Made by a program: the position numbers and the translations under genes | The notes under the pieces: generated by a model | Databases searched by the model: none | Told to the model about the DNA's origin: nothing | Seen by the model: only the letters and a program-made list of their open reading frames with translations | Shown here: positions 10,376-24,346 of the stretch, piece by piece | How positions within the stretch are numbered: the first letter of the stretch is position 1 | How the letters are laid out: every line of letters begins with the position of its first letter | From: a virus | Virus record (IMG/VR): IMGVR_UViG_3300049479_000313 | Coordinates: 1-55,629 of that record | DNA length: 55,629 bases | Reading direction: 5' to 3' (one strand)

Positions 10376-10387
10376 AAGGAGGTGATC
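10376..10387 (+). promoter_or_regulatory. Twelve-base perfect Shine-Dalgarno sequence
   Basis: AAGGAGGTGATC is the full complement of the 3' end of typical bacterial 16S rRNA (GATCACCTCCTT). It is followed at once by TTG (10388), five bases from GGAGG. It decides the start of the next gene and predicts strong ribosome capture. Confidence 0.7.
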
Positions 10388-11170
10388 TTGTATGAGATAG
10401 TCGCCGATGGTATCCCGCTGCCCGGGCGCTGGCCGTTGGCCGTGGCGGCGGCTCGGGCCCGGGCCTTGATCCGCCGGAATCGGGCCCGGAAGGCAGCGGT
10501 CTGGCCGGTGCACCGGCAATTTCTTCGTCCCACGAAAGTGTTCTTTCACTCTCTTCATCTACTCATGACGACCCTCACGAAGCCCTCGCACGCGGTGATC
10601 ACGTATGTGAACGCAGATCACCCCACGGATGTCCAGCTGCACCGCACCCCGTACGACCCGCCGGAAGGCCGGGTGGTGTGGCTCATCACCATGCCGGATG
10701 ACCTGATGCGCATGCCGATGACCGTTCTCCTGGCCGCGTACAACCGTGCCACGGGCAAGGCCATCAAGTCATTCAACACCCGCGCCAAGGGCGCAGTCCA
10801 GACGTACGCCGCGCTGCGCGGCTGGCTGGACCTCGATCTTCCTGATGTTCCCGCAGTTCCTTCTTCCCCCGAACCGACTGAGACTTCTCCCATGAAGACC
10901 AAGACCACCAAGACCAAGCGCGCCACGACCTCCAAGAAGAACACCGCCTCGGGGCGCCCCGGGCGCCGGTCCAAGTTCACCCCGGAGAGCACCATCACGC
11001 TCGTCGCCAAGGAGAATCCGAAGCGCCCGGGCAGCGCTGCGCACACGCGCTTTGCGTTCTACCGCACGGGGCAGACCGTGCAGCAGTTCCTCGACAAGGG
11101 CGGCTGGCTGGCGGACATCCGCTGGGACGAGAAGATGGGCTTCATCCGCGTGAGCGGCGCCAAGAAGTAG
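10388..11170 (+). CDS. Conserved phage hypothetical protein, probable TTG start (260 aa)
   Basis: From TTG 10388 the frame reads MYEIVADGIPLPGRWPL and stays open through an internal ATG at 10565 (MTTLTKPSHAVITYVN), which has no ribosome site of its own. The perfect Shine-Dalgarno sequence favours TTG; if so, residues 1-59 are an Arg/Ala-rich N-terminal module. Residues about 100-140 (LMRMPMTVLLAAYNRATGKAIKSF) and the C-terminus (GRRSKFTP, ITLVAKENPKRPGSAAH, FLDKGGWLADIRWDEKMGF) match a domain common in phages and bacteria with no known activity. A Lys/Thr-rich linker joins them. A DNA-binding role is plausible but unproven. Confidence 0.7.
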   Translation: MYEIVADGIPLPGRWPLAVAAARARALIRRNRARKAAVWPVHRQFLRPTKVFFHSLHLLMTTLTKPSHAVITYVNADHPTDVQLHRTPYDPPEGRVVWLITMPDDLMRMPMTVLLAAYNRATGKAIKSFNTRAKGAVQTYAALRGWLDLDLPDVPAVPSSPEPTETSPMKTKTTKTKRATTSKKNTASGRPGRRSKFTPESTITLVAKENPKRPGSAAHTRFAFYRTGQTVQQFLDKGGWLADIRWDEKMGFIRVSGAKK

Positions 11171-11172
11171 AC

Positions 11173-12012
11173 ATGCGCATCTTCATTCCGACCGCAGGAC
11201 GGGTGGGGCGCCAGCGTACGTGGCGGGCGCTCCCTCCGGCCTGGAGAGAGAAGACGGTCGTCGTCTGCCCGGCGCGAGAGCTCCCACAGCTCGCGCATTG
11301 GGACCGCGTCCCGGAGTCCGCGCTGTTGGCACAGCCGGAGGACGTGCGGACCATCTCGCACAAACGCCAGTGGATGCTGGAGCATGCCGCCGCGCTCGGG
11401 GAGGAGTCGTTCCTGATGATGGACGACGACCTGGAGTTCCATGCCCGGGAACATCCGCACCAGCCGGAGGCCTCTAGCCTCCGACGAGGCTTCGCCACGG
11501 AGGCCCGGATCGATCGGGCGCTCCGCTGGCTGGAGCATCTGCTCGATCACGAGCAGCGCGTGATTCACGGCGGATTGGGCAGTCGACAGGGCAACAACAC
11601 CAAGCAGGCGGTAGAAGTGGTGACGCGGGCGATGCATGCGTTCGCGCTGCGGCCCCGGGGCGCACTGGCCGCCGGGGTGGACTTCCGGGCGGTGTCGTGC
11701 CGCGAGGACTTCCACGACACCCTGACCTTGCTCCGCGCCGGGGCGCCGAACGTGGTGCTGCACGACGTGGTGGCTGACCCGGGGCCCTTCGGGGCGGAGG
11801 GCGGGTGCTCGGACGAACGGACCATGCAATCCTCGAACGAGGCTGCGGAGCAGCTGGCCGTGCTCTGGCCGGGGTTGGTCCGGGTGGTGGAGAAGGCGTA
11901 CTCGTCGTCCATCCCTCGGAAAGAGGTCGTGGTGCAGTGGCGCCGGGCGTACGCCGGAGGGGACGCTCCGGATGCGAGTGAGTTGTTCTTCTCGTACCGG
12001 AGCTTCCCATGA
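11173..12012 (+). CDS. TAGT-like glycosyltransferase, putative DNA-base glycosylation (279 aa)
   Basis: Begins MRIFIPTAGRVGRQRTW. The N-terminal strand and GR-RQ.TW segment, the metal-binding DDD triad in FLMMDDDLEF (D84-D86), an NNTKQAVE helix and REDFHDTLTLLRAG (E178-D179) fit a GT-A-like fold of the TET-associated glycosyltransferase (TAGT) type known from phages with modified bases. The expected role is transfer of a sugar from an NDP-sugar to hydroxymethylated pyrimidines in DNA. Downstream genes supply a kinase, a nucleotidyltransferase and a base-hypermodification protein. Assignment rests on motif memory; another acceptor is possible. Confidence 0.65.
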   Translation: MRIFIPTAGRVGRQRTWRALPPAWREKTVVVCPARELPQLAHWDRVPESALLAQPEDVRTISHKRQWMLEHAAALGEESFLMMDDDLEFHAREHPHQPEASSLRRGFATEARIDRALRWLEHLLDHEQRVIHGGLGSRQGNNTKQAVEVVTRAMHAFALRPRGALAAGVDFRAVSCREDFHDTLTLLRAGAPNVVLHDVVADPGPFGAEGGCSDERTMQSSNEAAEQLAVLWPGLVRVVEKAYSSSIPRKEVVVQWRRAYAGGDAPDASELFFSYRSFP

Positions 12013-12833
12013 TCATCCCGGGGCGGAGCGGGGCGCTCTTCGAGGTGGAGAATGGCATGCTGTGGAAGCGCATGGGGGGCGCGCGTGGGTCGGCGCGCTT
12101 GGCAGTACAGTGCGCCCGGCAGCAGGCGGCTCTCTCGTCTCACGTGCTCCCTCCCGGGATGGCGGTCACCCCTGTGACCGCCATCCAGGACGAGCGTCCA
12201 CACGTGTTCTCGTTTCAGATGCCCTTCTATCGGGAGCACCTCCATGCGACCCAGTTCGTGCAGTACGCGGGCGCGGAACAGCTGCAGGAGGCGTCTCGCC
12301 TGTTGTTGCGGCTGATGTCCGGGAATCTTCGTGCAGCGCCGTTAGGCGTGTTGTCCCCGGGGTGGAGCCGTTCCCTTGTGGAACAGCTGCAGGATCGTCC
12401 GTCCATCCCCGGGGTGGCACGCTTCACGCTGTGGGCCCGCGAGCATGACGTGTGGGGTGCGCTCATCCCGTCCGGCCCCGCCTATCACGGGGACCTCACG
12501 TGGGGCAATGTGCTGTGGTCGCTGGATCCGGGAGCCACGCCGCATCAACTGATCGACTACACGGATGCCCCATGGGAGACGCCCCTGATCGATGCGGCCA
12601 AGCTGTTGATGGACTGCGCGCTCCGCTGGACGTTCCGCCTGCAGGGGGAGGTCCCTTCCCCCACGACGGAAGTCCTGTGCGACCAGCTACACGAGCAACT
12701 GCTGGCCCAGTTGTCCCCGGATGAACGGCGCGTGGCCCGGGTGCTCCAGTACCACTACACACTTCGTCTGTTCCCGTACAACCCCACCCACGAAGACTTT
12801 CTCTCACACGAGATTCTCCGACTCTTCCCATGA
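12009..12833 (+). CDS. APH/choline-kinase-fold phosphotransferase (274 aa)
   Basis: Begins MIIPGRSGALFEVENGML. The C-terminal lobe carries YHGDLTWGNVLW (H160, D162, N167) and LIDYTDAPWETP (D183), the Brenner motif and metal-binding Asp of small-molecule kinases of the aminoglycoside-phosphotransferase, choline-kinase and sugar-kinase type. The N-lobe has a nucleotide-binding hairpin and a K (WKRMGG) near residue 20. The expected reaction is ATP-dependent phosphorylation of a small alcohol or sugar. Because a nucleotidyltransferase-phosphatase fusion follows by ATGA, it probably performs the first step in making an activated donor. Substrate unknown. Contains CGTTAGGC at 12340. Confidence 0.75.
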   Translation: MIIPGRSGALFEVENGMLWKRMGGARGSARLAVQCARQQAALSSHVLPPGMAVTPVTAIQDERPHVFSFQMPFYREHLHATQFVQYAGAEQLQEASRLLLRLMSGNLRAAPLGVLSPGWSRSLVEQLQDRPSIPGVARFTLWAREHDVWGALIPSGPAYHGDLTWGNVLWSLDPGATPHQLIDYTDAPWETPLIDAAKLLMDCALRWTFRLQGEVPSPTTEVLCDQLHEQLLAQLSPDERRVARVLQYHYTLRLFPYNPTHEDFLSHEILRLFP

Positions 12834-13894
12834 CGACACTCCTCATGCCCCTGCTGGGGCGCAGCACCCGGTTCCCCGACCTTCCGCCCAAGTGGACGCT
12901 CACGCACCCGGCCTCGAATCGCTCCCCGTTGCATGGCATGCCCATGTTCCGCGTGGCTTTGGAGCATTTGCCGGCGCAGGTCACCCATGTGGTGCTCGGG
13001 GTGCCAAACGACCGCAGCGGGTGGGTCGAGGACGTGCTGCAAAAGTTCCCGTTGCCGGGCAACGTGTCCTATGTGGTGGACGCGGCGATCGGCGCCACGC
13101 GGGATCAAGTGGACACGCTCACCCGCATGCTCACGTTCCACGAGCTAGCGCACGAGCCCATCCTGTGCCGGGACGGCGACAGCCAATTCGCCATGCCCGA
13201 GTATCCGGCGAGCCCGGGATGCTCGATCGCGGTCGCGGATGCGGCCCGGTACCCAACCGTGGCTCTCGCCAACAAGTGCTTCGTGCTCCCGGGCCCAGTG
13301 CCCGGGGTTGCCGGGGGATTGGTAGAGAAGCGCGTGGTGAGCCCCCTCTTCGGGGTGGGAGCCTACGGCTTCTCCTCTGGAGAAGAGTTCCTCGCGTCGG
13401 CGGCGATGCTGCGTCGCTCGACCGAGGAGGACTTGTACGTCTCGCACCTGCTCCGGTTGTTGATGGGCACGGGCCTCCCGGTACGGTATCATCTGGTCCA
13501 GAAGTACGAGGATTATGGCACCCTGACGGAGTGGCGTGCGTGCTACGCGGCGCATGGCACCCTGTTCTGCGACATTGACGGTGTCCTGCTCTCCTACACC
13601 GGAGCGGCCACCCGGGCGTCGGCCACCCCGCTCGCTCGCAATATCAGCGCGCTGCAGGGGCTCCCCAAGGGCTGGATGATCGTACTGACTACGGCCCGGG
13701 CGGAGTCCGAGCGCGCGGAGCTCCTGGCCCAGATCGCACGTCACCGCATCCCGTTCGACATGTTGCTCATGGGACTGCCGCGCGGACCGCGCGTCGTGGT
13801 GAACGACTCGGCGGCCAGCAACGCCGGACAGACCGCCCGGGCGCTGACCCTTCCTCGGGATAGCGACACCTTGCCGGAGTTGCTCGATGTCTAG
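12830..13894 (+). CDS. Nucleotidyltransferase-HAD phosphatase fusion (354 aa)
   Basis: Residues 1-235 begin LLMPLLGRSTRF.DLPPKW followed by GMPMFRVALEHLP, the signature loop and Lys of sugar-1-phosphate or phosphocholine-type nucleotidyltransferases, with CRDGDSQF (about 113-120) as the likely metal site. Residues 245-340 are a HAD phosphatase: nucleophile motif CDIDGVLLS (D248, D250), LTTARAESERA, and VVNDSAAS (D326). The fusion would make NDP-activated donor and dephosphorylate a related intermediate. Fused NTP-transferase/HAD proteins occur in surface-glycan loci; finding one in a DNA-modification cluster is unusual. It ends inside the next gene by 8 bases. Confidence 0.75.
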   Translation: MTTLLMPLLGRSTRFPDLPPKWTLTHPASNRSPLHGMPMFRVALEHLPAQVTHVVLGVPNDRSGWVEDVLQKFPLPGNVSYVVDAAIGATRDQVDTLTRMLTFHELAHEPILCRDGDSQFAMPEYPASPGCSIAVADAARYPTVALANKCFVLPGPVPGVAGGLVEKRVVSPLFGVGAYGFSSGEEFLASAAMLRRSTEEDLYVSHLLRLLMGTGLPVRYHLVQKYEDYGTLTEWRACYAAHGTLFCDIDGVLLSYTGAATRASATPLARNISALQGLPKGWMIVLTTARAESERAELLAQIARHRIPFDMLLMGLPRGPRVVVNDSAASNAGQTARALTLPRDSDTLPELLDV

Positions 13895-14729
13895 GCTTCG
13901 CGAGTTCGGGGCGTACATCTCGGAGCGATACGCCATCCACCAGCGCCGCTTGAAGGGGGAGCCGCCACCCTGGACCGAGGATCCGATCCTCCGTGACTGG
14001 AAATTCACCAATGTCAAGCGTGAATGGGACCGCACGACGCGGGCTCTGCGCGCCTGGACTATCCCGCACGCGCGCCATCGTCTCTTGGGACTGAACATGG
14101 CGTTGGCTCGATTCACGGGGCGCCCGGAGACGTGGTACACGGTGGGATATCAGCGGTCATGGCGCCCGGACGTCGTGGCCCGGCGCCTTGCACAACGTGC
14201 CGAGGCCGGACACAAGGTCTTTACCGGAGCGTACCTCATCTCCAACTGGGGGCGTCCGGGCAGCAAGGTCGACGTCGTCGTCCATGGCATCTTGACCCCG
14301 CTGTACGACAGCGGGCTGTTGTTGCCCGCGCGCCTGCGCCGGTTCCGGTATCTCGAGGACCTGCACCAGGAGCTCGTCCGCTTGCCCGGATTTGGGCACT
14401 TCATGGCGCAGGAGATTGAGCAAGACCTTGTGCACACGCCCGGCCTCCCACTGTGGCGCGATGCCGACTCGTTCGCGGTCGCGGGCCCCGGCGCGATGCG
14501 CGGGATCATGCGCGTGCTCGAGCAGCCGCTTCGGGGCCAATTCACCCAGGAGGATGCGCGGCGCTACATGCAGGAGTGGCGCATGACCCTGATCCCGCAT
14601 CTGCCTGAGGGGTTACTGCTGAGCGCACATGATGTGGAGTTCAACCTGTGTGAGTTCGACAAGTACGAGCGCGTGCGCACGGGGCAGGGTACCCCGCGTG
14701 CGCGCTTTACCCCAACGGAGGATGTATGA
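13887..14729 (+). CDS. Putative DNA-base hypermodification protein (5-hmdU kinase helical/aGPT-PPlase-like) (280 aa)
   Basis: Begins MSRLREFGAYISERYAIHQ. The pattern FGAYISERY...PPPWTEDPILRDWKFTNVKREWDRTTRALR, then ARFTGRPETWYTVGY, VFTGAYLISNW and a C-terminal VEFNLCEFDKYERVR matches the mainly helical phage family described in thymidine-hypermodifying phages as 5-hmdU DNA kinase helical domain or glutamyl/putrescinyl-thymine pyrophosphorylase. It would act on hydroxymethyl-pyrimidine in polymerised DNA, activating or displacing the 5-substituent. The neighbouring TAGT-like enzyme and donor-making genes support this. Whether it is kinase-linked or glycosylase-like cannot be told here. Confidence 0.75.
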   Translation: MSRLREFGAYISERYAIHQRRLKGEPPPWTEDPILRDWKFTNVKREWDRTTRALRAWTIPHARHRLLGLNMALARFTGRPETWYTVGYQRSWRPDVVARRLAQRAEAGHKVFTGAYLISNWGRPGSKVDVVVHGILTPLYDSGLLLPARLRRFRYLEDLHQELVRLPGFGHFMAQEIEQDLVHTPGLPLWRDADSFAVAGPGAMRGIMRVLEQPLRGQFTQEDARRYMQEWRMTLIPHLPEGLLLSAHDVEFNLCEFDKYERVRTGQGTPRARFTPTEDV

Positions 14730-14959
14730 AGTCATGCCTTGGCTGCCGGTTCGCGGATTGGCAGCGCACGCGCACCGGGAGGCTCCATCCGTCCGGCGAT
14801 GGACAGTGCACGTTCGTGGTCAAGGTGCCCGCGCTGCCGCTCTCCATGCGCTGGGGCGGCTCCTGGGGCCGAAATGACCTCGATGCAACGGGCGGCGCGA
14901 TCAGCCGTAAGCACTCGTTTCAGTCCCATTGTCCCTGCTACCAACCCACTCTCTCATGA
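14726..14959 (+). CDS. Small cysteine-rich protein (77 aa)
   Basis: Begins MKSCLGCRFADWQRT. CxxC near the N-terminus (C4, C7), a central C (about 28) and CPC near the C-terminus could form a zinc or redox site. It lies on ATGA overlaps between the hypermodification protein and the TS-fold enzyme, so it is part of the cassette's operon. No named family. The start follows CGGAGGATGT, a good ribosome site. Confidence 0.7.
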   Translation: MKSCLGCRFADWQRTRTGRLHPSGDGQCTFVVKVPALPLSMRWGGSWGRNDLDATGGAISRKHSFQSHCPCYQPTLS

Positions 14960-15999
14960 CCCACACTCTCAGCATCACCAACGTCAACCACGCCTATGTG
15001 GCCGGAGTCAACTTGATCCGCGACATTGGCGTGGCCGTCGCCACCCGCAATGGCCCCGCGTTCCGCGCCCCGGGCACGGTGGTCACCACGTTTCACCATC
15101 CCATGGAGCGCGTGCTGTTCGACTCGACGCGCGATGCCAACCCGTTCTTCCATCTGTTCGAGTCGCTCTGGATCCTGGCCGGGCGCGAGGACGTGCGTCC
15201 GCTCGCCTTCTTCAACAAGCGCATGGCCAACTACAGCGACGATGGCGAACGTTTCCACGGAGCCTACGGCTGGCGCTTGCGCTACGGCTTTGGCGTCGAT
15301 CAGATCGACCGAGCCATCACCATGCTCCGGCGCAACCCGCTGGACCGGCGCGTGGTGCTGTCGATTTGGCACCCGGCGCTGGACCTCGGCACGGACAGCG
15401 CGGACATTCCGTGCAACGACATGCTGAAGCTGTCGTCCGACGGCGCCCAGCTGGACCTCGTGGTGTTCAACCGCAGTAACGACATCCTCTGGGGCGCGTA
15501 CGGCGCCAACGCCGTGCAGTTCGCCTTCCTGCTGGAGTACCTCGCCGCCGGGGCCGGGCTGCGGCCCGGGCGCTTGGTGCAGGTCAGCACGGACTGGCAT
15601 TGGTACGGCAGCGACCGCCCGGCGCCGCTGGTCTACACGCCGACGATGTATGACCAGCGCCCGAACGGCGCGTGGCGCCCGTTGCTCGCCGCCGAGGAAA
15701 CGTTGGATCAACTCGACGATGATCTCGAGCTCTTGTTCGACTGCATGGAAGCCGTGGCCACGCGGAAAGCGCCAGAGTGCCTGTCGCCGAGCTTTTACAC
15801 GGCGTGGATGGCTACGGTGGCGTGGCCCATGTTCACGGCATGGCTGCACTACAAGAGCCACTGGCTGGACGGCGAACCCAAGACGCCGAACTTGCCGTTC
15901 GCCATGCGCACCTCGTACAACATCGCGGCCCCGGATTGGTCCGTTGCCGCCCTGAATTGGCTGGAGCGCCGTTACCTCAAGACCCTCACCCACCCATGA
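14956..15999 (+). CDS. Thymidylate-synthase-fold dNMP methylase/hydroxymethylase (347 aa)
   Basis: Begins MTHTLSITNVNHAYVAG. The catalytic loop DIPCNDML places the nucleophile at C153. The folate/nucleotide-binding region FNRSNDILWGAYGANAVQF corresponds to the QRSxDxxLGxPFN region of classical ThyA but with the variant sequence seen in phage dNMP hydroxymethylases. FHLFESLWILAGREDVRPL is the typical N-terminal element. It methylates or hydroxymethylates dUMP or dCMP with methylenetetrahydrofolate. The hypermodification neighbours favour hydroxymethylation (5-hmdUMP or 5-hmdCMP); plain ThyA activity is the alternative. Confidence 0.8.
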   Translation: MTHTLSITNVNHAYVAGVNLIRDIGVAVATRNGPAFRAPGTVVTTFHHPMERVLFDSTRDANPFFHLFESLWILAGREDVRPLAFFNKRMANYSDDGERFHGAYGWRLRYGFGVDQIDRAITMLRRNPLDRRVVLSIWHPALDLGTDSADIPCNDMLKLSSDGAQLDLVVFNRSNDILWGAYGANAVQFAFLLEYLAAGAGLRPGRLVQVSTDWHWYGSDRPAPLVYTPTMYDQRPNGAWRPLLAAEETLDQLDDDLELLFDCMEAVATRKAPECLSPSFYTAWMATVAWPMFTAWLHYKSHWLDGEPKTPNLPFAMRTSYNIAAPDWSVAALNWLERRYLKTLTHP

Positions 16000-16901
16000 C
16001 CTTCCTCACTCGCTATCTCCAACTCCGCCGGAGCGGCGCCGTGCGTCGCTGGCACACCGTGCCCCACGCTCCGCGCCAGACCGTGGCTGAGCACAGCTTC
16101 CACACCGCCCTGCTGGCGGTGGCTCTCTGGGGCGAGGACACCAGCAGTAAGCTGCTGCGCTGGTGCCTGACCCACGACTTGGCCGAGGGCCTTGTGGCGG
16201 ATGTGCCCGCGCCCGCCCGGTGGGCCGACCCCGCGTTAGGCGCGGCGGTGCGTCGCATGGAACAGGTGGTCGAAGCCCATCTGGACCTGACCCGGTACAT
16301 GGACCTCGACCCGGAGGACACGGCCCGGGCCAAGCTGCTGGACGCGCTGGAAGTGCTGTTCTTCGCGGCGGAGCAGGTGCGCGCGGGGGCCCGCACGGAG
16401 TTCGCCCCCATCATGGTCGCGGTGTGGGAGCGCATGAACTCGGGCATGTGGGCCCTGCCCGAGCTGATCGGCATGGAGGTCGTGCGCGAACTGGACGACT
16501 TCGTCCGGGCCACGCGCTTCCCCGCATGGCGGTGCGAACGCTGCGGCGAGTTTGCCCATGTGACCGAGCAGGCGGAGGGCCTCCGCTGGTGCCTGAGCTG
16601 CCAAGGCCATGACATCGGCACCATCATGGCCACGCGCGTGGCCCGGGAGGCGCGCATCGGCAATGATGACCCGCACGACGCGTTCGTGGCCACTCGGGCG
16701 TTGCCGTACAATCCGACTGACCGCGTCCGTGTCCGCGTCAGTGCCGTGGGAGCGTTCACCGCGTCCAACGGCATGCTGATCCGGCCCGGAACGGAAGGCC
16801 TGCGCCTTGACTACATCGCCGCTCCCGTGGGCCAGTGCTACGTGAAGCTCATGAACGAGGAGACGATTGTGACCCCGACCCTCTATTGGAAGGAGATCTA
16901 G
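15996..16901 (+). CDS. YfbR-like HD-domain 5'-nucleotidase with C-terminal zinc ribbon (301 aa)
   Basis: Begins MTFLTRYLQLRRSGAVRRW. HD motifs: AEHSFHTALL (H33), LTHDLAEGLVADVPAPAR (H60-D61, the YfbR-type motif) and LDALEVLFF (D116). YfbR removes phosphate from deoxynucleoside 5'-monophosphates; related phage HD enzymes hydrolyse selected dNTPs. A second module (about 175-205) has CERCGEF and CLSCQGHD, a zinc ribbon not found in YfbR (about 200 aa), followed by a C-terminal beta-rich part. Placed between the TS-fold enzyme and DNA polymerase, it likely removes the unmodified or competing nucleotide. Contains CGTTAGGC at 16234. Confidence 0.8.
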   Translation: MTFLTRYLQLRRSGAVRRWHTVPHAPRQTVAEHSFHTALLAVALWGEDTSSKLLRWCLTHDLAEGLVADVPAPARWADPALGAAVRRMEQVVEAHLDLTRYMDLDPEDTARAKLLDALEVLFFAAEQVRAGARTEFAPIMVAVWERMNSGMWALPELIGMEVVRELDDFVRATRFPAWRCERCGEFAHVTEQAEGLRWCLSCQGHDIGTIMATRVAREARIGNDDPHDAFVATRALPYNPTDRVRVRVSAVGAFTASNGMLIRPGTEGLRLDYIAAPVGQCYVKLMNEETIVTPTLYWKEI

Positions 16902-16905
16902 TCAC

Positions 16906-18777
16906 ATGGCCGGGCGCAAACGCGGACGGCAGGATAACAGCCTGCTCCAGGGGGACTTGTTCGACTCCCCCATGAACAACTCCACGGGCTGGGCCCCGCC
17001 CATGGAGTTTCCCCGCCTGCATGGCATGATCAGCCTCGACCTCGAGACCCGGGACGATGGGCTACGCACCGCGTTAGGCCCGGGGTGGCCCGTGGGCAAT
17101 GGACATCCCACCGGGGTGGCCGTGGCCACGGCCGATGCCGCGTGGTACTTCCCCACGCGGCATGCGCCGGGCGGCAACGTGGACGAGCGCGCGGTGTGGC
17201 GTTGGCTGCGCGACCAGCTCGGCCACGTGGATAGCGTGGTCATGCAGAATGCCACGTACGATCTGGGCTGGCTGCGCACGGTGGATGTAGCGGTGCCGTG
17301 CCCCATCCACGACACGAAGGCGATGGCGGCCCTCCTGGACGAGAACCGCAACAGCTATTCGCTGGAAGCCCTCGGCAAGGACTACCTCGGACAGGAGAAG
17401 CGCGTCGACCTGCTCGACACGTACGCCAAGCGCTGGGGCATGACCGGCAAGCCGGGGGAGAACATCTGGCGCATGCCGCCGTTCATCGTGGGCCCGTACG
17501 CGGAGATGGATGCCCGGCTCACGTTCGACTTGGCCCAGAGCTTCTTGCCCCGGCTCGCTGCCGAGGACCTCCTGGACGTGTACCAGCTGGAAATGGACTT
17601 GGTGCCCGTGCTGCTGGCCATGCGCGCCCGGGGCATGCGGGTGGACGTGCCTCGGGCCGAGCAATTGCGCGAACAGCTGCTCTCCGAGGAAGCCGACCTG
17701 CGTGATAGCATTAAGCAGCTGAGCGGCGAGTCGGTGGATCCGTGGGACGTGGAGAGCGTGGCCCGGGCGCTCAAGGCCCGGGGCATTGTGCCCGGGCGCA
17801 CGGAGGCGGGCGCCGTCAGCATCACGAAGGAGTTCCTCGCCGCCCACGCGGACGAGCGCGTGGCCCACGACGTGCTCCAGCTGCGCCGCGTGAATAAGCT
17901 GCGCAGTGGGTTCGTGGAGGGCGCGTTCCTGGCCCATGTGCAGAACGGGCGCATGTACCCGGAATTCCATCCCCTGCGCAGCGACGACGGGGGCGCCGTC
18001 ACCGGGCGCTTCAGCAGTAGCAACCCCAACGCCCAGCAGTTCCCCGCCCGGCGCGAGGAGGACGCGCGCCTGATCCGGGGGCTGATCCTGCCGGAGGACG
18101 GCTGTCAGTGGTTTGCCGCCGACTACAACCAGCAGGAGCCGCGCATGCTGGTGCACTTTGCCAGCCTCATGCAGCTGCGCCGCGCCGGAGAAGCGGCTGA
18201 GGCGTACCGGCGCGACCCGCGCACGGACTTCCATCAGTTCGTGGCCGATCTCACGGGGCTGCCGCGCAAGATCGCGAAGAACATTAATCTGGGCAAGTTC
18301 TACGGCATGGGCGGCGGCAAGTACGCGCGCAGTGTGGGCCTGCCCGTGGTGCGGGTCGACGGGCGAGAGTACGCGGGCCCGGAGGCGCAGGCGCAGCTGG
18401 ATCAGTACGATGCGCACTTGCCCTTCGTGTCGGCCTTCTACCAGCGGGCGCAAGGCGTGGCCCGGGAACGTGGCTGGGTGCGGACCATCGTGGGTCGACG
18501 GCGCCGCTTCCAGCCCGTGCACGAGCGCGGGGCCAGCCCGCACAAGGCGCTGAACGCCGTGATCCAGGGCAGCAGCGCCGACCAGAACAAGCGGGCGATG
18601 GTGGCGCTGCATCGGTCCGGGGTCGCGTTAGGCGCCGTGGTGCACGACGAGATCGACGGCAGCGCCCCGCCCGAGGACGCGGCCCTGATTACGGAGTGCA
18701 TGCAGGACTGTCTCCGGCTGGAGGTGCCCAGCGTGGTGGACTTGGCATGGGGCCCCACGTGGGGCGAGGCCGCATGA
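16906..18777 (+). CDS. Family A DNA polymerase with 3'-5' exonuclease (623 aa)
   Basis: The replicative polymerase. The exonuclease domain (about 35-230) has Exo I LDLET (D45, E47), Exo II NATYDLGWL and Exo III YAEMDARLTF (D202). The polymerase domain has motif A ADYNQQEPRMLV (D406; usual form DYSQIELR), an O-helix-like KIAKNINLGKFYGMGGG and motif C VHDEID (D581). There is no 5' nuclease domain, so the length fits T7- or phage-type Pol A. The motif A sequence NQQEP in place of SQIEL is a noticeable variant. It is separated from the HD gene by four bases. Contains CGTTAGGC at 17072 and 18626. Confidence 0.95.
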   Translation: MAGRKRGRQDNSLLQGDLFDSPMNNSTGWAPPMEFPRLHGMISLDLETRDDGLRTALGPGWPVGNGHPTGVAVATADAAWYFPTRHAPGGNVDERAVWRWLRDQLGHVDSVVMQNATYDLGWLRTVDVAVPCPIHDTKAMAALLDENRNSYSLEALGKDYLGQEKRVDLLDTYAKRWGMTGKPGENIWRMPPFIVGPYAEMDARLTFDLAQSFLPRLAAEDLLDVYQLEMDLVPVLLAMRARGMRVDVPRAEQLREQLLSEEADLRDSIKQLSGESVDPWDVESVARALKARGIVPGRTEAGAVSITKEFLAAHADERVAHDVLQLRRVNKLRSGFVEGAFLAHVQNGRMYPEFHPLRSDDGGAVTGRFSSSNPNAQQFPARREEDARLIRGLILPEDGCQWFAADYNQQEPRMLVHFASLMQLRRAGEAAEAYRRDPRTDFHQFVADLTGLPRKIAKNINLGKFYGMGGGKYARSVGLPVVRVDGREYAGPEAQAQLDQYDAHLPFVSAFYQRAQGVARERGWVRTIVGRRRRFQPVHERGASPHKALNAVIQGSSADQNKRAMVALHRSGVALGAVVHDEIDGSAPPEDAALITECMQDCLRLEVPSVVDLAWGPTWGEAA

Positions 18778-22562: not shown

Positions 22563-23096
22563 ATGTCCGACCTCACTGACGATCGCGTGCTCGATCCCGA
22601 CCCGCCGTCCACGCGGGACGCGCCGCCGATGGCGGACGACACACCGCGCACCATGCCGGGCGTGTTCGAAGGCGAGTGGCGCACGCTGCCTAACGGGAGC
22701 CGCTGGACCGATGCCAACGGCAACTCGTGGCGTCGAGCCAAGAACGGACGCCTGAAGATTGGCGGCAGTCATCCGGGCGTCACCGGCCCCAAGCCGCAGG
22801 CGCTGCGGATGAAGGCCCGGGCCGACTTGAACGAGATCCTGGCGCTGGCGAAGAAGATCGCCAAGAACCCGAAGTCCAAGGCCCGCGACGTGCTGAAGGC
22901 GATTGAGGTGCTACACAAGGTGGGCGGCATGCAGAGCGTGGCCCTGTTGAACGCCGATGGTGACAACGCCACGTTGGCCCCGGTGCAGGTGGTGGAGAAC
23001 GTCATTCCCATTCCGGCCAGTCAGGCCGAGGCCCGGGCGGCGGAGGAGCGCGAGTTGCCCGCCTTGGAGTTTGAATCGGACGATGACGGCCAGTGA
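22563..23096 (+). CDS. Putative terminase small subunit (177 aa)
   Basis: Begins MSDLTDDRVLDPDPPST. A disordered acidic N-terminus (1-60) is followed by SRWTDANGNSWRRAKNGR, a basic GSHPGVTGPKPQALRMKAR segment and helices (ARADLNEILALAKKIAKNPKSK). It overlaps the large terminase by GTGA. Position and the DNA-binding-like basic helices support the small-subunit call; the sequence itself is not diagnostic. Confidence 0.6.
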   Translation: MSDLTDDRVLDPDPPSTRDAPPMADDTPRTMPGVFEGEWRTLPNGSRWTDANGNSWRRAKNGRLKIGGSHPGVTGPKPQALRMKARADLNEILALAKKIAKNPKSKARDVLKAIEVLHKVGGMQSVALLNADGDNATLAPVQVVENVIPIPASQAEARAAEERELPALEFESDDDGQ

Positions 23097-24346
23097 CCGT
23101 TGTCACGCTGAGTCCATGGCAGACGCGCGTCTACCGGGATCCGGCGCGCTTCAAGGTCATCATTGCGGGACGGCAAAGCGGCAAGTCGCACGAAGTGCGC
23201 ACGGAGATGATTACGGCAGCCCTCGCTCGGCCTCGGCAGCTGGTGGAGTACTTCGCGCCGACACGCGACATGGCCCAGGACCTGATGTGGGATCCGCTCA
23301 AGCAGACCTTGAGCGAGGGCTACATTCTCAAGATCAACGAGTCCCGGCTCCAGATCACCACGCGCAACAACAGCATCCTCCGGCTCCGGAGCGCCGACGT
23401 GCCCGACCGGGCCAAGGGCGTGGGCCGACACTTGGTGGTGCTGGACGAGTTCGTGCAGATGGAGAAGGACATCTGGTACGAGGCCATTCGGCCGTCCCTG
23501 TCGGCCACGGGCGGGCGGGCCATCTTCACCAGCACGCCCAAGGGCTACAACTGGGGCTACGACCTGTGGCTCCGGGCCTTGAACCCGGACTATCCGCAGT
23601 GGAGCGCCCACACGGTCACGTCGCTGGACGCGGGCCTCATCAGCGCCGACGACATCGCCGAGGCCCGGGCGACGCTGGACCCGCGCACGTTTCGGCAAGA
23701 GTACGAGGCCAGCTTCGAGACGCTGTCGGGGCGCGTGTACGATCGCTACAGCCGGGCACCGTATCCCGAGGGCAACTTGGATGCGAGCGTGTGCGATGAT
23801 CCGGACTTGCCCTTGCTGGTCGGCATGGACTTCAACGTGCATCCCATGAGCGCCACGTTAGGCGTCATGCGGGCCGACGAGTACCATGTGTTCCAGGCCC
23901 TGGAGCTCCCCACCAGCAACACGGAGGAGATGGCGCAGTATCTGCGGCAGTATGCCGGGGACCGGCGCGTGGTCCACGTGTGCCCGGACCCCAGCGGGCG
24001 CAGTCGGCGCACCAGTGCCCAGCGCGACACGACGGACTTCACGATCCTGGAGTCGTTCGGCCACTTTGTGGATGCGCCGTTCAAGGCCCCACTGGTGGGC
24101 GACCGGGTCAACAACACCCAGTCCAATCTGGGCAGCACGGACGGGCGTCGCCGCGTGCGCATTCATCCCACGGGCGGCGCCCTGCTGGGCCGGGCGCTGG
24201 ATGGTCTGACGTACAAGGAAGGCACCAACGTCGTGAACAAGGACAGCGGTCTGGATCACTTGCCGGATGCGCTGGGGTACGTGCTGTGGCAGGAGTTCAA
24301 CCTCCTCACGCGATCCTGGACCGTGAAATCCTACCGGAGTTCGTGA
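23093..24346 (+). CDS. terL: Terminase large subunit (417 aa)
   Basis: The packaging ATPase-nuclease. Walker A AGRQSGKS (G26-S32) and Walker B LVVLDEF (D118-E119), then TSTPKGYNW (coupling motif). The nuclease domain has GMDFNVH (D246), VCPDPSG (about 300) and SGLDHLPDALGY (D388, D392) as RNase H-fold acidic residues. GTG is the start, set by the GTGA overlap with the previous gene. At 417 residues it is on the short side for TerL but contains both domains. Contains CGTTAGGC at 23856. Confidence 0.95.
   Translation: MTVVTLSPWQTRVYRDPARFKVIIAGRQSGKSHEVRTEMITAALARPRQLVEYFAPTRDMAQDLMWDPLKQTLSEGYILKINESRLQITTRNNSILRLRSADVPDRAKGVGRHLVVLDEFVQMEKDIWYEAIRPSLSATGGRAIFTSTPKGYNWGYDLWLRALNPDYPQWSAHTVTSLDAGLISADDIAEARATLDPRTFRQEYEASFETLSGRVYDRYSRAPYPEGNLDASVCDDPDLPLLVGMDFNVHPMSATLGVMRADEYHVFQALELPTSNTEEMAQYLRQYAGDRRVVHVCPDPSGRSRRTSAQRDTTDFTILESFGHFVDAPFKAPLVGDRVNNTQSNLGSTDGRRRVRIHPTGGALLGRALDGLTYKEGTNVVNKDSGLDHLPDALGYVLWQEFNLLTRSWTVKSYRSS

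Follow-up and report, generated by a model that had tools for sequence, protein, structure and literature searches.

A kinase and nucleotidyltransferase-HAD gene pair as a probable sugar-donor module beside the TAGT glycosyltransferase of a viral thymidine-hypermodification locus

We analysed a stretch of viral DNA of 55,629 nt (IMG/VR virus record IMGVR_UViG_3300049479_000313, positions 1 to 55,629; "the window" below), in which a kinase gene of the APH fold and a gene for a nucleotidyltransferase fused to a HAD phosphatase domain (NTP-HAD) directly follow the gene of a TAGT DNA glycosyltransferase. The two genes probably form a donor-synthesis module for DNA glycosylation, whose product, a nucleoside diphosphate (NDP) sugar, would be put by TAGT on 5-hydroxymethyl-deoxyuridine (hmdU) in DNA. 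This reading is carried by the gene order, the protein families, the intact motifs, the predicted folds and a non-random co-occurrence with one TAGT subclade. A first-pass annotation of the window had placed the pair at 12009-13894, which agrees with the open reading frames (ORFs) found at 12009-12833 and 12830-13894. The transferase and the pair are as follows.

11173..12012, + strand: TAGT DNA glycosyltransferase (PF20691, E 2.8e-16; PHROG 842, E 4.3e-42; DDD at residue 84)
12009..12833, + strand: APH-fold small-molecule kinase, 274 aa (PF01636; predicted fold; motifs)
12830..13894, + strand: NTP-HAD, whole ORF, 354 aa (motifs; predicted structure)
12830..13561, + strand: predicted sugar-1-phosphate nucleotidyltransferase domain, about residues 1-244 (predicted structure; profiles to 4evw, ST0452 and GlmU)
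13562..13894, + strand: fused HAD phosphatase domain (motifs; weak profile and PHROG matches)

These genes are tightly joined. The stop codon of TAGT overlaps the start of the kinase (ATGA at 12009-12012), the stop of the kinase overlaps the start of NTP-HAD (ATGA at 12830-12833), and NTP-HAD overlaps by 8 bases (13887-13894) the next gene, HMUDK_hel, the helical subunit of 5-hmdU DNA kinase. Together with the thymidylate-synthase (TS)-fold and HD-domain genes further on, these overlaps support the earlier statement that the pair is coupled to a glycosyltransferase inside a DNA-modification locus.

To describe the recurrence of the pair, viral contigs were scanned with a TAGT profile and the best 80 of 250 relatives were fetched, from which all counts out of 80, with their 22 and 58 subsets, are taken. 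With custom profiles, the kinase and the nucleotidyltransferase (NTP-transferase) were found together in 22 of the 80 TAGT loci and neither of them in the other 58, and one was never found alone; a first kinase profile missed two loci (L051 and L068), and both were recovered by a second profile that incorporated the kinase of L051. HMUDK_hel is present in 75 and TS in 77 of the 80 loci, and the commonest order of the cassette (14 loci) is HMUDK-TAGT-TAGT-kinase-NTP-TS-HD. The conservation within HMUDK_hel was too low along its length to give a profile for scanning. After near-copies were merged at 90%, there are 14 distinct NTP-transferases besides that of the window. A Pfam control independent of the custom profiles gave the same picture: NTP_transf_3 (PF12804) was matched at E<=1e-3 in 8 of 12 cassette records and in none of 25 others (two of these 25 match between 1e-3 and 1e-2), while APH (PF01636) was matched at E<=0.01 in 9 of the 12 and in none of the 25. 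In this control the window itself was matched by APH and not by NTP_transf_3. In the reverse direction, a search with the NTP-transferase profile gave 19 loci (7 are known contigs under new locus numbers, 6 are known loci and 6 are new), in which TS adjoins in all 19 and the kinase in 18; the sole kinase-less locus, L118, begins inside the operon. A second scan with the NTP-transferase protein of L040 returned its own contig alone. The association of the kinase and the NTP-transferase with TAGT loci is thus beyond chance, and the search for the pair beside TS-fold genes in other phages, which the first-pass annotation had proposed, succeeded in viral contigs. One locus of another layout is L042 (3977-12704), which holds two HMUDK_hel genes, one before TS and one before TAGT-kinase-NTP.

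The cassette also follows the phylogeny of the transferase. The glycosyltransferase family that includes TAGT is of GT-A type, and the TAGT tree was built by a quick method from 52 of 89 rows, after near-copies and rows with a profile E above 1e-40 (most first-copy TAGTs) were dropped. The window TAGT and 16 other cassette rows fall into one clade (SH-aLRT 98) with one cassette-free row, and the distribution of the cassette on the tree needs 2 changes, compared with a mean of 14.5 when shuffled. That the cassette tracks one TAGT subclade links the transferase to the donor module.

For the NTP-HAD protein, no Pfam match lies over the cut-off (the best is HAD_SAK_2 at E 0.086), and its two parts were recognised from motifs and from AlphaFold models, which for this protein and for the kinase were built on alignments from the fetched loci. 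The first part holds GRSTR at 10, PPK at 19, RDGD at 114, EKR at 166 and DYGT at 228. Its G-x-x-x-R...PK signature and EK motif align with those of 4evw, ST0452 and GMPPB, and G10, R14, K21, D117, E166 and K167 are unchanged across 26 aligned NTP-transferase sequences; loss of catalytic residues on alignment, which had been named beforehand as the sign of a wrong reading, is not seen there. Such a signature, a catalytic Asp and an EK motif are marks of sugar-1-phosphate nucleotidyltransferases. The NTP-HAD model (pLDDT 87.4, pTM 0.79) places the NTP domain closest to 4evw, a Vibrio NDP-sugar pyrophosphorylase (Z 23.9, root-mean-square deviation 2.8, 222 aligned), with UGPase, RmlA and GlmU at Z of about 20-22, and Foldseek with this domain ranks 4evw at the top, followed by cytidylyltransferases, RmlA and others. 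A profile built from the NTP-transferases of modification loci matches 4evw (6.5e-15), 5z09, a dual sugar-1-phosphate enzyme (2.5e-10), and GlmU (6.5e-10). By profile and predicted fold, the domain is of the sugar-1-phosphate nucleotidyltransferase type. The second part holds DIDG at 248 (D248, D250), LTTAR at 286 (T287/T288) and ND at 325 (N325-D326). The family profile of NTP-HAD reaches the HAD chains 4xrp (2.9e-5) and 1xpj (0.0058), and PHROG 415 is matched at E 2.1e-4; judged by its motifs, this part is a weakly matching yet motif-complete HAD phosphatase.

The kinase matches PF01636 with a score equal to the cut-off (23.2 bits, E 6.5e-5) and contains HGD at 160, IDY at 182 and DYTD at 183. 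It has the APH fold in its model, together with the HGD....N and ID motifs. This model (pLDDT 80.6, pTM 0.84) resembles APH, MTR kinase, fructosamine kinase, glucosamine kinase and maltokinase with Z of 13-15, and the protein is probably an APH-fold small-molecule kinase with a sugar as its likely substrate. As the first-pass annotation had noted, the HAD nucleophile D248/D250 and the HGD/IDY motifs of the kinase are intact, and by these motifs both proteins look active.

Besides, the same annotation had left the choice between a non-glucose sugar and a phosphodiester-linked small molecule, with LicA/LicC-type pathways in mind. In such a route the kinase would make phosphocholine or another amino-alcohol phosphate, the nucleotidyltransferase would convert it to a CDP derivative, and the product would be linked to DNA by a phosphodiester. 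The kinase family profile does reach choline kinase 4r77 at 3.3e-5, and the DNA of phage SP-15 is described as carrying phosphodiester-linked glucuronate on a modified uracil (PMC5977210). On the other hand, the NTP profile of the modification loci leads to the sugar-1-phosphate enzymes 4evw, ST0452 and GlmU; of the three enzymes proposed for comparison, GlmU, RmlA and LicC, the former two gave fold matches, and no LicC-named chain is among the matches listed in the profile or Foldseek searches. Moreover, the transferase at the locus comes from a glycosyltransferase family, a LicD-type phosphotransferase was not seen in the locus, and the HAD and transaldolase partners suit sugars better. We consider this route unlikely. 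The special NDP-sugar is favoured by the sugar-1-phosphate type of the predicted NTP structure, and the phosphodiester is left unsupported next to a glycosyltransferase.

In other loci the cassette has further partners. HAD genes are found in 12 of the 22 cassette loci and in none of the 58 cassette-free TAGT loci; they lie upstream of HMUDK in 9 of the 22 and between the kinase and the NTP-transferase in 3, and an upstream HAD is present in all 9 reverse-search loci of the NTP clade that have a complete HMUDK gene. In L053 (12003-12749) and L054, a transaldolase-family gene (PF00923, E 6e-35 in L053) stands between the kinase and the NTP-transferase, which might point to a sugar-phosphate precursor. 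Separately, in the cassette locus L035 (8862-11495), the ORFs that flank TAGT are glycosyltransferase-like and sulfotransferase-like (the latter PF13469, E 9.8e-6, slightly short of the cut-off), and at this locus the phage may extend or sulfate its DNA sugar.

Relatives of the fused form are found in another setting. The kinase as a direct query gave no match in annotated phages and none that was confirmed in viral contigs, and its distant relatives were reached solely through the NTP-HAD and TAGT profiles. Annotated phages contain one full-length relative of NTP-HAD, in marine virus AG-345-E15 (30%), and one HAD-only match; the HAD-only matches L001-L011 and L013 were left out of the analysis. 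Scans with the NTP-HAD profile gave 11 viral and 5 bacterial loci, and in all 13 relatives read (17 loci fetched) a kinase gene lies directly upstream of NTP-HAD. The surroundings, read by eye, are epimerase-like, glycosyltransferase-like and similar genes, and tblastn around these relatives found no TAGT, HMUDK or TS nearby. When 14 of the records were searched whole, HMUDK_hel was over the cut-off in one (a bacterial genome, with two copies) and TAGT in one (the record of L024), with one further TAGT match under the cut-off. In the virus record of L024 (locus L117), TAGT is at record positions 22975-23883, about 12 kb from the fused NTP-HAD cassette in a glycan cluster. In the marine virus locus L012 (12803-15034), a stand-alone HAD resembles the fused domain, and another protein seems, on inspection by eye, to combine a nucleotidyltransferase with an APH-like kinase. 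The fused pair is therefore mainly a glycan-type cassette and not exclusive to modification loci, and since its nearest homologues are in glycan loci, the cassette looks borrowed; the GC of the pair (0.663) is the same as that of the window and does not mark it as foreign.

These homologues in glycan loci of viruses and bacteria are what speaks for a passenger role unrelated to DNA, in which the pair would alter the surface glycan of the infected host. We judge this to be very improbable, because the pair in the window is joined by overlapping codons to TAGT and HMUDK_hel, and elsewhere the pair tracks a TAGT subclade and adjoins TS in every locus of the reverse search.

Several observations nevertheless weigh against a donor module for DNA. 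Homologues in loci without modification genes had been named in the first-pass annotation as telling against its proposal, and this is half of what was found: fused homologues do lie in glycan loci, while the pair also recurs beside TAGT and TS. The window NTP protein is 22-31% identical to the fused proteins of glycan loci and 16-24% to those of modification loci, and the tree of NTP domains cannot place it (approximately unbiased test, p 0.40). Besides, L078, whose TAGT row is within the cassette clade, has no cassette; a HAD was not found in 10 of the 22 cassette loci (several are cut off upstream); TAGT has no solved-structure relative at E 0.01; and the APH fold is common to choline, amino-alcohol and drug kinases too, so that the fold leaves the substrate of the kinase unfixed. 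The fused HAD, common to the window and the glycan-type relatives, had suggested an independent recruitment of the window pair. Since the tree does not reject that the window joins the modification-type sequences, such a recruitment is not claimed, and given these NTP identities and this tree, it is by context and by TAGT that the window is counted as a member of the recurrent module.

To place the pair in its locus, we read the neighbouring genes. The order in the window is an ORF without family match, TAGT, kinase, NTP-HAD, HMUDK_hel, TS-fold, HD and family A polymerase, of which the remaining features are listed below.

10382..11170, + strand: ORF without family assignment, directly upstream of TAGT (ORF call)
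13887..14729, + strand: HMUDK_hel (PF18723, E 7.5e-42)
14929..15999, + strand: TS-fold enzyme, a putative deoxyuridylate hydroxymethylase (PF00303, 6.1e-19; PHROG 5131, 1.7e-88)
15993..16901, + strand: HD-domain (YfbR-like) nucleotidase (PF13023, 1.1e-9; PF12917, 2.1e-8)
16906..18777, + strand: family A DNA polymerase (PF00476, 1.7e-49; 36% to M6 gp62)

The real start of the TS-fold gene may be a few codons inside the given ORF. The ORF at 10382-11170 has no Pfam or PHROG match, and its C-terminal 61 aa share 52% identity with a stretch upstream of TAGT in L037.

The window carries a thymidine-hypermodification locus that resembles the one in phage M6, which makes 5-(2-aminoethyl)-deoxyuridine (5-NedU). 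The M6 locus contains ADDT, a pyridoxal-phosphate (PLP) enzyme, a radical S-adenosylmethionine (SAM) enzyme, the P-loop HMUDK kinase, HMUDK_hel, Nmad5, TS, HD and polymerase. The window keeps HMUDK_hel, TS-fold, HD and family A polymerase in M6 order, and its TS-fold enzyme has 38% identity to M6 gp58 with a motif in common; upstream, in contrast, it has TAGT, kinase and NTP-HAD where M6 has ADDT, PLP enzyme, radical SAM and P-loop hmdU kinase. The Lydia paper names the hydroxymethyltransferase and the hmdU kinase of such phages (PMC11946847). The P-loop hmdU kinase (PF18748) is absent from the window record and was found, among 46 records searched (many of them fragments), in M6 alone, the positive control. 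ADDT (PF18724) is likewise absent from the window and over the cut-off in M6 alone among the 46, with one match under the cut-off in the record of L111.

The absence of the P-loop kinase beside a present HMUDK_hel could mean that the APH-fold kinase substitutes for it on hmdU in DNA, with the HAD editing like polynucleotide 3'-phosphatases; weak matches of the HAD part to Pnkp1 and to a polynucleotide kinase in PHROG point the same way. This explanation is very improbable, since 55 of the 58 TAGT loci without an APH kinase do have HMUDK_hel, indicating that the kinase follows the NTP-transferase and not HMUDK_hel, and proteins of the family are also encoded in glycan loci that have no DNA-modification genes close by. 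For a donor-synthesis module, we infer the following reactions and their sequence, with a sugar as the transferred group, hmdU as the base that accepts it and a part for HMUDK_hel. The TS-fold enzyme, by homology to M6 gp58, would make 5-hydroxymethyl-dUMP. The polymerase would put hmdU into phage DNA. The APH-fold kinase would phosphorylate a sugar, for which the anomeric position is the likely site, the HAD domain would strip any other phosphate from it, and the nucleotidyltransferase domain would convert the sugar-1-phosphate to the NDP-sugar. TAGT would then place the sugar on hmdU in DNA, which it would reach with the help of the helical HMUDK subunit, so that HMUDK_hel would do for TAGT in the window what it does for the P-loop kinase in M6. 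The frequency of HMUDK_hel in TAGT loci, though 45 of the 46 records are without PF18748, hints at a general hmdU-access module.

Parts of this arrangement have precedents. RB69 and its relatives carry an arabinosyl-5-hydroxymethylcytosine (hmC) module that is thought to make UDP-arabinose (PMC6024577; PMC13390438), and TH1_063 of Shewanella phage Thanatos is a UDP-xylose pyrophosphorylase proven in vitro (PMC12838424). The likeness is a phage-encoded nucleotidyltransferase in phages with glycosylated DNA, and the window, too, has a protein of a DNA glycosyltransferase family beside an encoded nucleotidyltransferase. Those systems, however, act on cytosine in T4-like phages, and in the available text of these papers an APH kinase, HAD, HMUDK_hel and TAGT are not described. 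Compared with these precedents on cytosine, the new elements are thymidine, HMUDK_hel without its kinase, and the kinase-HAD-NTP triad. The TAGT of T2/T6 (beta-glucosyl-HMC-alpha-glucosyltransferase) adds a second glucose to glucosyl-hmC, and solitary TAGTs are reported in 288 of 753 phage genomes (PMC13216743); the window protein is of the same Pfam family, PF20691, and has a donor module encoded beside it. AmgK-MupP-MurU of Pseudomonas, with kinase, HAD phosphatase and uridylyltransferase in series to UDP-MurNAc (PMC5371407), has the same logic as the triad, while it serves cell-wall recycling and its sequence similarity is weak. Indeed, no NCBIfam model, those of AmgK and MurU included, matches the window kinase or NTP-HAD, and for the relatives, the AmgK model reached the L012 kinase at E 0.012 and the MurU model the L049 NTP-transferase at E 0.014, far under the cut-offs (14.8 of 550 and 15.3 of 250 bits). 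Metavirome DNA glycosyltransferases that put varied sugars on DNA have reportedly been described by Pyle et al. in 2024, in systems said to obtain 5hmC from a methyltransferase and a TET-type oxidase; the window has a TS-fold enzyme and HMUDK_hel instead. No paper on an HMUDK-TAGT-kinase-nucleotidyltransferase locus came up in the literature searches, and absence from print is not claimed.

In conclusion, the chances are about even for a wider picture, in which HMUDK_hel is a general hmdU-access module that pairs with the P-loop kinase (M6) or with TAGT, and one TAGT subclade also encodes a kinase-HAD-nucleotidyltransferase triad making a non-glucose NDP-sugar. Thymidine hypermodification would then have a branch not described so far, with base-J-like DNA that carries an unusual sugar, through a triad that resembles surface-glycan cassettes and has its fused form in the window. 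The locus offers a testable gene set for sugar modification on thymidine, not cytosine, in phage DNA. Its donor enzymes and one transferase, with intact motifs, open a way to the chemistry, while the separation of HMUDK_hel from its kinase suggests a role for the helical subunit. Should the sugar prove new, so would the DNA modification, which would bear on the escape of phages from restriction and CRISPR nucleases and would supply enzymes for the labelling of DNA.

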